From NCBI GenBank assembly GCA_038043445.1, contig JBBTBY010000026.1:1-33906 (forward strand): a DNA stretch of 33,906 nucleotides, read 5' to 3'. The notes below the pieces were generated by a model, which saw only the letters and a program-made list of their open reading frames with translations, did no database searches and had not been told where the DNA came from. Source of the stretch: Spirochaetota bacterium. GTDB lineage: Bacteria; Spirochaetota; Brachyspiria; Brachyspirales; JACRPF01. Below, in pieces: positions 26,913-33,906 of this stretch. The position numbers were made by a program, and so were the translations under genes. Within the stretch, counting starts at the first letter, position 1. Each line of letters starts with the position of its first letter.

Positions 26913-29900
26913 CTATTTCTTCACTATCACTTTGACTTTCTTATTGTATCCATTGGGTCCGGTGATGATGCCCAGATAGAGCCCCGAGGGCGCCTTCACC
27001 CCGCCCATGGTCCCGTTCCATTCGGCGCTCTTGAACTCCGCGGTGAACGCATAATCGCCGATCTTATGCCCCATGGCGGTATAGATATGCAGCTTATAGC
27101 GCGGCAGGTCCTCGCTGCGTGTATCCTCCCTCAGGTAGACGATGAAACGTTCTCCGCGTTCCGGGTTGAAGAGCGTTTTCGTCGCAGCGCTTATCGCGTT
27201 CGCTTCCATGACGATGCCCGGCAATATCGTCGTTTCGCTCGTCGCATCCGGTGAGTAATCGTTCAGGGTGAGCGCATACTGCTGACCCTGGATATTGAGC
27301 GCCGCGAGGCCCGTCTGTTCGGATCTCCGCAGAACGAGCCGGAAACGGTCGCGTATCGTCGCATTGTCATGCATCTTCAATACGATAAGGAAGGGGCGGT
27401 CAACATTCGACAGTGCGACCGGCGTTTCAAAGAGTATCCGTATCTTATTGTCCGCTGCTATGGAGAACCCGCCGGGCACCAGACTGTCAGCGGCATCGAA
27501 CGATCCCGGGGATGTCCCGGTATCGAGATAGGTGGACACATTGCCGATGTCGTTGGTGGCCATGGCGGCGGCGAACGACGTTGCATTGCTTCCCTCGAGC
27601 GCCAGCGTGAACCCGTTGACGGAGAACACCGCATCATTATCGTTCGCGCGCATGGTAATGCGCATCGCCGCGATGCCGTTCTGCCCCTGTTTCACATACG
27701 TGGAGAGGAGCGATGACACGCTCGCGATGACGGCATTATTGTCGAGCGAGATCGGATAGACAGGATATGTCGAGAACAGCGAGGAGCGTTCGACGATGCC
27801 GCCGTTGGGGCCGCTCGCGGAAACGCGGACGATACGCAGTTCCGGCCGTGCCGCATCATTGAACGTAAGCGGGGTGAACGTGACGAAATAGCGGTCGGCG
27901 GTGGGCCGTACCGAATTCGTAATGGCGGGGAACAGTATGGTGACGACGGCATTGTCGTTCGAGATGAAGTAATTCGTTGAGATGGCGACGCCGGTCGAAT
28001 AATCGAAAGATGCCGTCGTATTGGTGTATATGCGGATGTATCCGGTGAACGGTACGTTCGTCGTGAGATTGGTGACCGTGATGCCGTACACCGTCTCGAC
28101 ATTGGCGCCTTCCGCTTCCCGGTACATATCGAACGCTGCGAGCGCGACCTGCACATTGGATATCGCCTGCACATTGCTCTGCGGATATACCTGATAGATG
28201 TACTGGTCCCAGAATTCCGCCGCAGGATCGACGACGATGATGTTGGTATACGGGAGCGGACCGTTGGTCATGCCGGTGGCGAAACCGAGCTGCGTATGCC
28301 CGTCATTGATCCTGTCCACGAACCGTATCGCGGCAGGATTCGCCCCTGCGGGTGCTATCTCAAGCCCCAAACGCTTCCCGATCATGGCGCCGACATTGTA
28401 ACCCACGAACACCGTCACCGCATTCGTCCCGGAGAGCACTATCGGGCTGTCAGCGAGGTCGAGCGTTACCCCGGCATCGTTGAAGTCGATCGCCGCGAGC
28501 GTGGTGCCGAGTTTCCCGCTGATCTTGTTTGTGGCCAGGTATACGGTGGTCGGGACATTGGCGTCCGGTGCAGCGGCATTACGTTTCACATCGACGTATC
28601 TGAGATAGTTCGTCGCATCATTGTCGTCCCCGGCGAGCGTGAACGCGATGTAGGGGTTCTTATCGCTCGATCCGTACACCGACGCGTCGATGAAGTCATT
28701 GGTCATCACGGTGACGACGACATTGTAGCTGTCGATGCGCATCACCTTCGACTGATAATCGAAGAGCGCGTTGGTGTTCTCAAAGACGTTCGTGCTGCCG
28801 GTATAGTAGAGATTGGTGATCTGGAATCCGATGCGGTCGTTCTTCGAAAGCGCTATGGTATTCGTGAGCTCGAAGACAAGATAGAATTTGTCCCCGAGGA
28901 AGGTGTTCGAGTTGTTGATCTGATCGGGCGTGCCGTCGGCGATGGTGCAGCGGATATCGAAGCTTCCCCCGGCGATGACATTGGTCCAGCCGACCAGGAT
29001 ATCCCCTGCGTCGTAGCGCGTCGATTCAAGCGATGTATTCGTGCTTTCGCGATAGAGGTATGCGATGCCGTCCACGTTCGAACTTATTGTTGACGTAAAG
29101 GTGCGCACCGCAACGCCGGTGAAGGCGTCGGCATCGTTCGTATCGTTATCGCCGTAGATGCGTATATATTCCGCCACGACCTTCTGGTTCGTGCCGAACG
29201 ATTCGGGCATATAGTTGTTCGTCGCGTCCTTCAGGTAAAAATCGAACGGATATGCCGCAAGGAGCGTGATGCGGTGATTCGATACCGACCCTGCCAGGGG
29301 AGATGCACCGGCGGCATTCGTTGCCGTCGCATTGGTCGGATAGAGCCCCCCGAGCCCGTCCGCGAAGGTAAGCGAACGTATGGCATTGGTAAGCTGCATG
29401 CCGATGGTGGCGGTGGGGGTGCCGGAGAATTTTATCTCGCACCCCACGAAGAACGTGTTCGTTCTCCCGGTCATCGGATACAGGGTCCCGAGCGAGACGA
29501 GCGCATTTTTTGTTGCATCGAAGTTCGCGAACCCGACGCTTGCGTCATTGGTGCTGTTGAACACCCCATCGCCGTCGATATCATGGAACACGCGCAATGC
29601 ACCGAGGTCGCCCATCGTCGCCGTGCCGGTGTTCGAAACGGCGATCGTAGAGAGGAAATTCGTCGCGTCGGGGTCATCGCTCAGTACGAGCACCTTCATA
29701 TTGTTGATGTATCCCGCCTGTACCGCCGGTGCATTGTTGCTCTCCATCGAGGCCGCATACACGCCCACGCGGTAATTATCCATTCTGCTCGCGATCGTCG
29801 GATTATAGCTGTTGGTGAATTTCAGGACATTGGTAACGATGGCGTTGGTGGGGCCGTCCGGGCCGATGCCGTGGATCATGGAGATGTACCCGTTCACCAG

Positions 29901-32900
29901 ATTGGTGTAGAGCCCTGCCGCGGCGCTGTTGGTCACCCGTAACGCAGCCCACAGGCGCGTCGGGTTCAACTGTACGCCGCTCAGATTGTTCTCGTTGAGT
30001 GACAGCGAGATGGGAAGGTTCGGGTTCGTGAAATTCGTTTTTGCGAGGAATTTCTCGTTCGTCTGGAAACCGTCTATCGCATTGGTCTCGCGATAGAGAT
30101 AGATCTCGCCCTGCACGTTCGAGCAGAACCCGCCGAGGCGCACATCGACATTGGTGATGCGCTGCGCGAACAGGTCCTCAAAGACATCGGCAATGAGATC
30201 GACAGAGGCGATGGGATAAATATTCGACACCGCCATCGACGCCGGTATGCCGAAATTGTTGCCGCCGTTGACGATATAGAAATCCCAGGGGTTGTTGAGG
30301 AACGATTTTATCGTGACATAATTCGTGGTCGAGGGACCGCTTGACGACCCGGCGATGTACGAATACTGCGCATAATTGTCGTCGATACCGTCCGTGAGCC
30401 CTATCGACCCGTTGGTGAGCAGAAGCCCGAAGGTGTTGCTGATGACCAATTCGCTGCCGCTCACGTCATAGCCGACGTAGAGTACCGTTTCATTGGTGCC
30501 GCTGACCGCGAGCGGGACGGAGAACGATATGCGCGTCTGCCCGTTGGTGAACGAATTGTACGAGAGCATGTTGTACGACGGATGGCTTAAGAGCTTGATG
30601 TACGGGATATGCCCGAGCGCAAAGCTCAGGTTCGACGCGTATCGGTTCGTCGTGACATCGATGTACGAGAGATAGTTGGTGCCGTCAGGATCATCGCCCG
30701 AAAGGCTTATCTTGAGATAGCGATTGTTGAACGAGGACTGCAGCGGATTGAGCGGGACCTGTTCATTCGATATGTAGTTCACCACCACGCGGCCGTTGTC
30801 GATGCGGGCAGTTCGGGAGAACGCATTGGTCAGGAGATAGAGATTGGTGAACGCCCCGAGATCGGGGCCCTGGCAGCGCATATTGGTCATCTGGAACCAG
30901 ACGGTGTTCGTTTTTGCGTCTTCAACGTTATTCGTGAGCCTGAATAGCAGATAGAACCTGTCGGGGGTATACTGATCGGAGGAAACATTCGTGAAATCGC
31001 AGTTGATCGAAAAATCAGCGCCTGCTGCAACTGCATTGCTCGCGATGAACTGATCGGCGGCGGAGAATGTGCCGTTGCCGTTCGTTTCCTTATAGAGATA
31101 GGCGTAGCCGTAGACATTCGCCTTGGATGTTATTGTCCCGACCTTGACATCGACCCCCTTGAATACCTGTATGTTCGTTTCCTCGGTATCCATGAAGATA
31201 TCGAACGAACCGGCAACGACGCCCTGATTGGAGGAGAAGCTTGCCGGCATCATGGAGTAGGTGAGCCCGTAGAGGGAGTAGTCGAACGGCCGCGAGGTAT
31301 AGGGGATGAGCCGGTTCGTCGCCGGGATATTCCCCATCGGGAACGTACCGATGATGACGGGTGCCGCGGGGGAGTGCTCGTCGCCGTACGGGTCGCCGAA
31401 GATAAGGTTGGACGCCGCGAGCACCTTGAGCGCCACCGTGCTTCCCACCGTGCCGTTGAGCTCGGTATCATATACGCCGTAAAACGTCTTTGCGGTCGTA
31501 TTGACGATCTCGAACGCCGGGAACACGGATAGCGAGTATAACTTTCCGCCGCTTATCGAGCCGGCCATGATGGACGGATCGGCGCCGACCTCAAGACCGT
31601 CATTATCCTGATCGTAAAAGAGCTTGAGATACCCTACATCGGTATTCGACGCCGTTCCGGAATTGGTGAGGACAAATCCCTGGAAATAATTGGTGGCATC
31701 GGGATCGTTGTTCGATATGACCATCCTGAACTGCAGGTTATTGAACGAGCCCTGTTTCACCCGCTCTTCGGTGGTATTGGTGTAGTAATATACGTAGAGC
31801 TGATGCGTATCGACGCGCGATATACGCAGATCGCCCGTGGTGATGGAGCCGGCATTTTCCACGAGCGTCGGTCCCGGGCCGGGGCCGGTCACCGTAATAT
31901 CGTTCACGCGGATGCGGACGGTATCCGAGTATATGGCCGAAGCGGTATTGGTTATCTGCATCGCCAGCCAATAGCGCGTGGGCGACAGCGGGTTTATCGA
32001 TTGATTCGTCTCCGGCACGGTGAACGCGTTGAAAACGTTCGTTGCTGACGTCGTCGATATGTTCAGCATTTTCACGAGCATTTCATTGGTGGTGAAATTG
32101 GTGCGCAGTCCGTTGGTATCGCGGTAGAGATACAGCTGCCCGCGGAGGTCGGTATAATTGCCCTCGAGGCATATCGTGGTCGAAAGCATCTCTTCCGTAA
32201 CACCCTCGCCGTCGCGTCGCACCTCGAAATAGCCCATCGGCACTATGTTCGATATGCCGAGCGAAACGGGGGCGGTATTGCCCGCGCTGATGACCATGAA
32301 ATCCCACGGATTGACGATGAGCGCCGGCATCACTTTGACGATCTGGTTTTTGTACGTTTCGTTCGTGAGCGTCGTCCCGTTGCTGAGCGCCTGCGATGTC
32401 GGCGTCGTTTTATCGACCCACGAACGCATGTTGGTGCCTGTGGTGTTCTCAAGCGGCGTACCCCATACCTCGAAGGAGATGACATCGAGCCCGCCGGGAT
32501 TGAACGATGCGCTTTCATTCGTATAATAGATCAAAATGCAGTTCGAACTTATGCCGGGGATTCCGTTCGTCACGAACACATTGCCGCTCTCGTTCGCGCC
32601 GAGAAGCACCGAATCGATATTGGATATCGCGCAATTGGTGAACATGTACGGTATCTCGATGGCCGCCTGCTTTATCGGCGAGGTGAAATTCGTTTTCGCC
32701 TGGATATAATACGTGAACGAATAATACGCGGCACCGATGGTTATCTGCCCGGGCTTCACGCTCCCGTACGCGCTCACCGGGCCGGAAGGCTCGCGCAGCG
32801 TCACGTTCTGCCCGCCCGTTGTCCGCTGCCACCCGCAGGTCGAGTAATTGCTCACCGCCCCCTGATTCGTTATCTTCGGATCGAACAGCGGCGCATCCAC

Positions 32901-33026
32901 CTTGGAAGAAAATGCAAATGTACCGATATTGCTGATGCCCGGGTGCATATCGGCGATCACCATGAAATTCTTGTGTTGTGTTGTGTCGTGTTCGTTGCGT
33001 TTATCATGGCGCCGAGGCGTATCCAC
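26913..33026 (-). CDS. Giant repeat surface protein, 3' (main) part, frameshifted from upstream part
   Basis: The frame is open for 2,037 codons but its possible starts (GTG 33026, ATG 32963) have no ribosome site or signal peptide, and the 5' part of the protein is in another frame (see 32957-33906). Numbering from 33026, five copies of a roughly 340-residue unit are seen: an opener NPWDF/RPFDY/NPWDFY/YPFDFY/AAEFWDQY at 239, 579, 912, 1259 and 1602, a LYLYRxTN phrase about 60 residues later, and a DDPDATNYL-like phrase at 440, 778, 1117, 1467 and 1796. It is rich in Asn and Thr. Residues about 1953-2037 resemble the FlgD Ig-like/C-terminal sorting domain (WNGTMGG, PSGLYLGI). Likely secreted and surface-exposed; substrate or partner unknown. 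Confidence 0.72.
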   Translation of the reverse strand: MDTPRRHDKRNEHDTTQHKNFMVIADMHPGISNIGTFAFSSKVDAPLFDPKITNQGAVSNYSTCGWQRTTGGQNVTLREPSGPVSAYGSVKPGQITIGAAYYSFTYYIQAKTNFTSPIKQAAIEIPYMFTNCAISNIDSVLLGANESGNVFVTNGIPGISSNCILIYYTNESASFNPGGLDVISFEVWGTPLENTTGTNMRSWVDKTTPTSQALSNGTTLTNETYKNQIVKVMPALIVNPWDFMVISAGNTAPVSLGISNIVPMGYFEVRRDGEGVTEEMLSTTICLEGNYTDLRGQLYLYRDTNGLRTNFTTNEMLVKMLNISTTSATNVFNAFTVPETNQSINPLSPTRYWLAMQITNTASAIYSDTVRIRVNDITVTGPGPGPTLVENAGSITTGDLRISRVDTHQLYVYYYTNTTEERVKQGSFNNLQFRMVISNNDPDATNYFQGFVLTNSGTASNTDVGYLKLFYDQDNDGLEVGADPSIMAGSISGGKLYSLSVFPAFEIVNTTAKTFYGVYDTELNGTVGSTVALKVLAASNLIFGDPYGDEHSPAAPVIIGTFPMGNIPATNRLIPYTSRPFDYSLYGLTYSMMPASFSSNQGVVAGSFDIFMDTEETNIQVFKGVDVKVGTITSKANVYGYAYLYKETNGNGTFSAADQFIASNAVAAGADFSINCDFTNVSSDQYTPDRFYLLFRLTNNVEDAKTNTVWFQMTNMRCQGPDLGAFTNLYLLTNAFSRTARIDNGRVVVNYISNEQVPLNPLQSSFNNRYLKISLSGDDPDGTNYLSYIDVTTNRYASNLSFALGHIPYIKLLSHPSYNMLSYNSFTNGQTRISFSVPLAVSGTNETVLYVGYDVSGSELVISNTFGLLLTNGSIGLTDGIDDNYAQYSYIAGSSSGPSTTNYVTIKSFLNNPWDFYIVNGGNNFGIPASMAVSNIYPIASVDLIADVFEDLFAQRITNVDVRLGGFCSNVQGEIYLYRETNAIDGFQTNEKFLAKTNFTNPNLPISLSLNENNLSGVQLNPTRLWAALRVTNSAAAGLYTNLVNGYISMIHGIGPDGPTNAIVTNVLKFTNSYNPTIASRMDNYRVGVYAASMESNNAPAVQAGYINNMKVLVLSDDPDATNFLSTIAVSNTGTATMGDLGALRVFHDIDGDGVFNSTNDASVGFANFDATKNALVSLGTLYPMTGRTNTFFVGCEIKFSGTPTATIGMQLTNAIRSLTFADGLGGLYPTNATATNAAGASPLAGSVSNHRITLLAAYPFDFYLKDATNNYMPESFGTNQKVVAEYIRIYGDNDTNDADAFTGVAVRTFTSTISSNVDGIAYLYRESTNTSLESTRYDAGDILVGWTNVIAGGSFDIRCTIADGTPDQINNSNTFLGDKFYLVFELTNTIALSKNDRIGFQITNLYYTGSTNVFENTNALFDYQSKVMRIDSYNVVVTVMTNDFIDASVYGSSDKNPYIAFTLAGDDNDATNYLRYVDVKRNAAAPDANVPTTVYLATNKISGKLGTTLAAIDFNDAGVTLDLADSPIVLSGTNAVTVFVGYNVGAMIGKRLGLEIAPAGANPAAIRFVDRINDGHTQLGFATGMTNGPLPYTNIIVVDPAAEFWDQYIYQVYPQSNVQAISNVQVALAAFDMYREAEGANVETVYGITVTNLTTNVPFTGYIRIYTNTTASFDYSTGVAISTNYFISNDNAVVTILFPAITNSVRPTADRYFVTFTPLTFNDAARPELRIVRVSASGPNGGIVERSSLFSTYPVYPISLDNNAVIASVSSLLSTYVKQGQNGIAAMRITMRANDNDAVFSVNGFTLALEGSNATSFAAAMATNDIGNVSTYLDTGTSPGSFDAADSLVPGGFSIAADNKIRILFETPVALSNVDRPFLIVLKMHDNATIRDRFRLVLRRSEQTGLAALNIQGQQYALTLNDYSPDATSETTILPGIVMEANAISAATKTLFNPERGERFIVYLREDTRSEDLPRYKLHIYTAMGHKIGDYAFTAEFKSAEWNGTMGGVKAPSGLYLGIITGPNGYNKKVKVIVKK

Positions 33027-33906
33027 AGCTCATTGCCGTTCGTGCGAAGTACACATTCACCGCGGTTGATATAGCGATTGCGCGTATTCGTGAAGTCGGC
33101 ATAGGAAACATTGGTGTTCGTCTCAATAAGCGTGCCGTCTTCCATGTAATCGGAAATAACATACACCTTGGATGTGTCCCATCCGTAATTGCTCCATGCG
33201 TCGGGCTTCGATATGGTGATCACATTGATGCCCGCATTCGAAGCGTAGATGCCGTTCGCAAAATTGAACTGCAGCCTTCGAAGATCGGTGGAATTCGAAC
33301 TTTGGTCCTCCGAATCGATCGATACGCTCATTGCAGATGAATCGGCGGCCGAGCGTATCATGAAGGAGCCGAACCGTGCATCACAGGACGAGTTCTTGTT
33401 GCGCACTTCCTCGTTTATCATAAAACGGATATTGTTCGTGAACGATACCGGGAAATTTCCGACAAAACAGTACTCATTCGGGTGGGCGTCATTGTTGTCG
33501 GGGTCGGGGTTGAAATAGAACGACACCGAGGACCCGTCATGCGTCGCCATGAGCGCGACATTCGTGTTCACTATAGTGCCGACCGTCACATTCACGGTAA
33601 GCGAATGGAAATTTGCAAGATTCGTTGCTGACCCGTCCGGGCGTATCGCATTCGACAGATTGAGCTTGATATCCGCGCCATTGACAAATGCCCCGAAAAA
33701 GTTATCCGGGGTGTCCCCATTCTTTGCTGAATAGAAATACATCACCCGTGTAAGGAACGCCATGTAATTGGCATTGTAGAGCGAAAGGTCGGTAAGGGCG
33801 TCTTCAACGACCCATAATCCGAAATCTGCAGCCTCAACAACGGGACTCGCCCCGTTCGCAGAAATAGTCCATCCGCGGACATCGAGCATCGCCCCGACGG
33901 GGATGG
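32957..33906 (-). CDS. Giant repeat surface protein, 5' part (start outside window; frameshifted)
   Basis: The frame enters from beyond the window edge (PVGAMLDVRGWTISANG) and runs about 316 codons to TGA at 32957-32959. The sequence (SFYFNPDPDNNDAHPNEY, MIRSAADSSAMSVSIDSED, WIRLGAMINATNTTQH) has the same Asn/Ser/Thr-rich secreted character as the next frame. It overlaps that frame by 70 bp. Removing one 5-bp unit of the repeat tract at 32973-32992 would join them as NTTQHKNFMVIADMHPG, a sensible continuation. I therefore take this as the 5' part of one gene of at least about 2,300 codons, interrupted by an indel, a phase-variable repeat, a programmed +1 shift or a sequence error. The signal peptide should lie outside the window. 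Confidence 0.68.
   Translation of the reverse strand, partial: IPVGAMLDVRGWTISANGASPVVEAADFGLWVVEDALTDLSLYNANYMAFLTRVMYFYSAKNGDTPDNFFGAFVNGADIKLNLSNAIRPDGSATNLANFHSLTVNVTVGTIVNTNVALMATHDGSSVSFYFNPDPDNNDAHPNEYCFVGNFPVSFTNNIRFMINEEVRNKNSSCDARFGSFMIRSAADSSAMSVSIDSEDQSSNSTDLRRLQFNFANGIYASNAGINVITISKPDAWSNYGWDTSKVYVISDYMEDGTLIETNTNVSYADFTNTRNRYINRGECVLRTNGNELWIRLGAMINATNTTQHNTRISW
32973..32992 (-). repeat. Pentanucleotide tandem repeat at the frameshift
   Basis: Read on the minus strand, the unit AACAC occurs four times in tandem with one variant (AACAC, GACAC, AACAC, AACAC). Because the unit is 5 bp, loss or gain of one copy changes the reading frame. It sits inside the 70-bp overlap of the two frames of the giant gene. 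Confidence 0.8.

Follow-up and report, generated by a model that had tools for sequence, protein, structure and literature searches.

A giant exported-repeat-protein gene in a Spirochaetota genome broken at a short pentamer tract, probably by ordinary slippage

The window, a stretch of 33,906 nucleotides that makes up the entire contig C26 of a Spirochaetota genome (5.13 Mb, 178 contigs, 97% complete), carries a giant gene that is split into two frames inside a short 5-bp tandem tract. On sequence comparison this split is a private and recent frame break, as the homologues are unbroken and the register with one unit fewer matches that of the closest homologue, and it would most simply have arisen by the gain of one unit through slippage. 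On balance, we read the locus as a single long gene, encoding an exported repeat protein, whose copy here was broken recently by an ordinary and in principle reversible slippage mutation, with no dedicated switch. The ordinary slip is probably to be preferred to an evolved on/off switch, which ranks second among the explanations, with an artefact of assembly or strain mixture in third place.

Two frames of one gene and the tract in their overlap

The upstream and downstream frames, both on the minus strand, share exactly 70 bp (Table 1), and the frame coordinates thereby confirm both this overlap and the upstream stop at 32957 as given in the initial annotation. A ribosome leaving the upstream frame for the downstream one would need a shift of -1 (or +2). 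The contig ends inside the giant gene and consequently roughly its first 110 codons are missing; this 5′ end was sought on the other contigs of the assembly and was not found.

Table 1. Features of the giant gene, its tandem tract and the adjoining gene in the window.
Feature	Position	Strand	Remarks
Upstream piece of giant gene	32957-33904 including stop (32960..33904, 315 codons)	minus	open at contig end
TGA ending the upstream frame	32957..32959	minus	11 bases past tract
ATGGTGA, upstream stop overlapping possible second-frame starts (ATG 32963, GTG 32960)	32957..32963	minus	without Shine-Dalgarno-like sequence
5-bp tandem tract, 4.4 copies, 88% match	32971..32992 (22 bp)	minus	TRF, period 5
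Perfect part of tract, 3.2 copies (16 bp), ACACAACACAACACAA	32971-32986	minus	sequence
Downstream frame, rest of giant protein	26913..33026, 2,037 codons	minus	follows stop at 33027-33029
Next gene, 892 aa, LysM-like segment	24232..26910	minus	starts 2 bp after giant gene

The junction is crossed in one frame by nine homologous genes from six Spirochaetota genomes, namely the host (one gene, on contig C167 of G000) and five others (three genes in G001, two in G063 and one each in G032, G040, and G070). Genome G001 belongs to the same family as the window genome and to a different genus, and its homologue on contig C16 is a single frame of 3,110 codons. The upstream piece has 43% identity to residues 142-425 of this 3110-aa protein, while the downstream piece has 59% identity to it over 1,819 aligned positions and reaches its last residue. 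Two separate genes are ruled out, as nine of the nine homologous genes are continuous across the junction; homologues that are naturally two proteins had been named in the initial annotation as a finding that would speak against its reading.

When one unit is removed from the tract, reading proceeds through ...NATNTTQHKNFMVIADMHPG... into approximately 2,018 further codons, and TNTTQHKNFMVI aligns gap-free with TNTAQSTTIKVI of the closest homologue. The uninterrupted junction foreseen for the deletion of one unit is therefore borne out, and the alignment of the joined protein with homologues that had been proposed as a check gives a gap-free register in the closest of them and a single gene in all. 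These two results, the position of the break at the tract and its recent age are what the comparison shows.

The overlap contains the sequence AACAC GACAC AACAC AACAC AAGAA. Its earlier description as four tandem AACAC-type units agrees with the copy number returned by TRF, but only 16 bp of it (3.2 units) are perfect and the fourth unit is GACAC. An exact 15-base AACACAACACAACAC does not occur in the genome, since the perfect run is ACACAACACAACACAA. Genome-wide counts were taken from 1.47 Mb of the host genome, sampled in stretches, in which four perfect period-5 tracts of at least 15 bp were observed against 2.75 expected under a third-order Markov model; pentamer tracts are thus not enriched in the sampled sequence and the tract by itself is unremarkable. 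The earlier state would have been a perfect run of 11 bp (2.2 units), and from its own codons a gene is expected to hold roughly one tract this long or longer.

The coincidence of tract and break is another matter. For a single frame break, the chance of landing in any of the four such tracts, each ~16 bp, within 1.47 Mb is about 4e-5, and tract and break are therefore almost certainly linked; the location of the break exactly inside a tandem tract indicates slippage. When 79 strong frames from G001 were used as queries against the 1.47 Mb of host genome, the break in the giant gene was the sole genuine frame break, which argues that the assembly is not generally full of shifts. Two further frame-break candidates, both in L111, were rejected as antisense frames lying over neighbouring intact genes. 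Across the two pieces, 2,352 codons in all, no further stop or shift was found, and the absence of further stops places neutral divergence since the break below ~1.7% (95% bound, taking 2.5% as the share of random substitutions that create a stop and weighting transitions twofold).

The giant protein and its genomic setting

The N-termini of the homologues are signal-peptide-like as judged by eye, and the C-terminal ~60 residues of the giant protein weakly resemble type IX sorting domains. The match of the C-terminus to CHU_C (E-value 0.0067) scores 17 bits and lies below the cut-off of 27, while Por_Secre_tail (E-value 0.035) is matched by the paralogue only and under its curated cut-off. With type IX cargo carrying these domains the window family shares a signal-peptide-like start in homologues, a repeat body and a weak likeness at the C-terminus; however, no match of the giant protein reaches a curated cut-off. 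The designation "surface protein" in the initial annotation is accordingly reasonable, although it is backed by no family at cut-off. Structure prediction of the junction region, made from a homologue, was poor (mean pLDDT 44).

Relatives of the 892-aa gene lie directly downstream of giant-gene homologues in G001 (start of C16, and C15), G040 and contig C167 of the host, and the two genes therefore form a conserved pair. The nearest named relative of the host is JACRPF01, a groundwater Spirochaetes MAG, and a scan of named genomes gave matches only in JACRPF01 (two loci) and JAFLEE01, with none from the window species. The viral contigs searched gave no match, and searches of the window for tRNAs and Rfam families had no hits.

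Two other tandem tracts were observed elsewhere in the host genome. One is a perfect octamer tract, (TGGTAGTA)5.4, at L095:3687-3729 (G000:C27:43687-43729) in the 5′ leader of a 694-codon frame, which is a better candidate for a repeat switch in this genome than the tract of the window. The other is a perfect tetramer tract, (AAGG)8.5, at L060:4992-5025 (G000:C17:4992-5025); it precedes a small, lipoprotein-like minus-strand frame by ~225 bp.

Ordinary slip or evolved switch

In the preferred account, replication slippage at the short AACAC tract would have added one 5-bp unit, whereupon the reading frame would run into the stop shortly past the tract. The assembled genotype would then make a truncated protein or none, and loss of a unit would restore the frame at a low rate. 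Two points weigh against this account: the rate of slippage could exceed what the perfect length of the tract suggests, and one assembled genome would look the same whether the mutation is real or an artefact, and whether the state is fixed or varies.

The CTTCT tract of the Neisseria opa genes is a familiar case of translational phase variation by simple sequence repeats. The GACGA tract of hsdM and the TCAGC tract of the hmg locus resemble it and the tract of the window in being pentamers in a coding frame, where a change of one unit breaks the frame, and the Haemophilus cases also share with the window a small number of units. In all three known systems, however, length varies between strains, and switching has been measured for hsdM, whereas the window offers an imperfect tract of one length in one genome. 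The initial annotation had placed the giant gene in this class, as a candidate phase-variable switch with the printed state being off and one unit fewer being on. Such a switch would have to gain and lose units often enough for cells of both states to persist side by side. We consider this somewhat unlikely, while noting that much of what it presupposes has stood up: there is one gene, a change of one pentamer unit, and a state with one unit fewer that fits the homologues. A non-triplet tract sits exactly at the break in a gene for an exported protein, and the remainder of the frame is undamaged. Short pentamers have precedents in Haemophilus influenzae: the (GACGA)4 tract of hsdM changes to three units at a high rate, and the TCAGC tract of an LPS-export gene fits a pattern of expression with two units and none with three (PMC2651432). 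In Salmonella, three-unit 6-bp repeats in mutL interconvert (PMC2955026); this triplicate, known from Salmonella and E. coli, is like the window tract in having about three units and being able to gain or lose one, but its 6-bp unit preserves the frame and conversion between alleles has been observed, while the unit in the window breaks the frame.

The switch function itself found no support. The tract has 3.2 perfect units (2.2 in the presumed ancestral state); its printed length attains the minimum of three applied in Haemophilus, but falls short of the at least five units required of pentamers in the Neisseria phasome study (PMC5953494). The closest homologue has no comparable tract at the aligned place, the homologues available all being distant, and such tracts are not in excess genome-wide. 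By homology the tract sits ~400 codons into the giant gene, and the off product would therefore still be a long exported fragment, which also counts against a switch. Finally, the tract is present in one assembled copy and at one length in a single genome.

Artefact, recoding and decay

An artefact of assembly or of strain mixture, in which the cells truly carry the shorter tract while the contig followed a minority or erroneous path, is unlikely, and less probable than a switch. Between the tract and the contig end lie ~0.9 kb, and the rest of the gene is absent from the assembly, a situation in which variants can confuse assemblers. A GeneTack survey of 1,106 genomes judged singleton frame transitions confirmed by homology to be mostly errors or recent indels, and expected unclustered breaks confirmed by BLASTp to be sequencing errors and not genuine indels (PMC3711429). 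The window resembles these singletons in having one break in one genome with relatives intact, but slippage is suggested by the exact position of its break within a tandem tract. Against an artefact, the 22-bp tract is shorter than a read or k-mer and has no long homopolymer, and the compared genes of the genome hold no other frame breaks.

Translation of both frames, either by programmed -1 frameshifting or by termination at the TGA and restart at the overlapping ATG or GTG, is very improbable. The frames overlap by 70 bp on the same strand, and restart is conceivable because the upstream stop overlaps second-frame starts (ATGGTGA, GTGA), a feature absent from the initial annotation. However, no Shine-Dalgarno-like sequence was found at the internal starts 33026 (GTG), 32963 (ATG) and 32960 (GTG), in keeping with the earlier remark that the internal starts have no ribosome site; none of the nine homologues is split; and a restarted C-terminal part would have no export signal. 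A slippery heptamer of the form X_XXY_YYZ was sought in every frame of the overlap and was not found, nor do the nine homologous genes have a conserved frame break, the mark of programmed -1 frameshifting. Programmed frameshifting is rejected on its direction, the missing motif and the unbroken homologues; the +1 event suggested previously is of the wrong direction, as the shift needed is -1 (or +2), and has no recoding motif. Least probable of all is an old pseudogene on its way out, with which the broken frame would agree, since the 2,352 codons hold no other lesion, divergence since the break is below ~1.7% and the downstream part is still 59% identical to its homologue.

As an ordinary slip, the window shows cleanly how slippage can split a long gene within an assembly of metagenome type, where the homologues reveal the single gene. 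That a free-living, uncultivated spirochaete toggles a giant exported protein by means of a very short pentamer tract deep in its gene, with an off state that would export a long N-terminal fragment and may lower expression of the partner gene 2 bp downstream, appears unlikely. If variation in tract length were found, the locus would represent a repeat-driven switch with an unusually short tract in an environmental spirochaete, outside the pathogens in which such switches are mainly studied.
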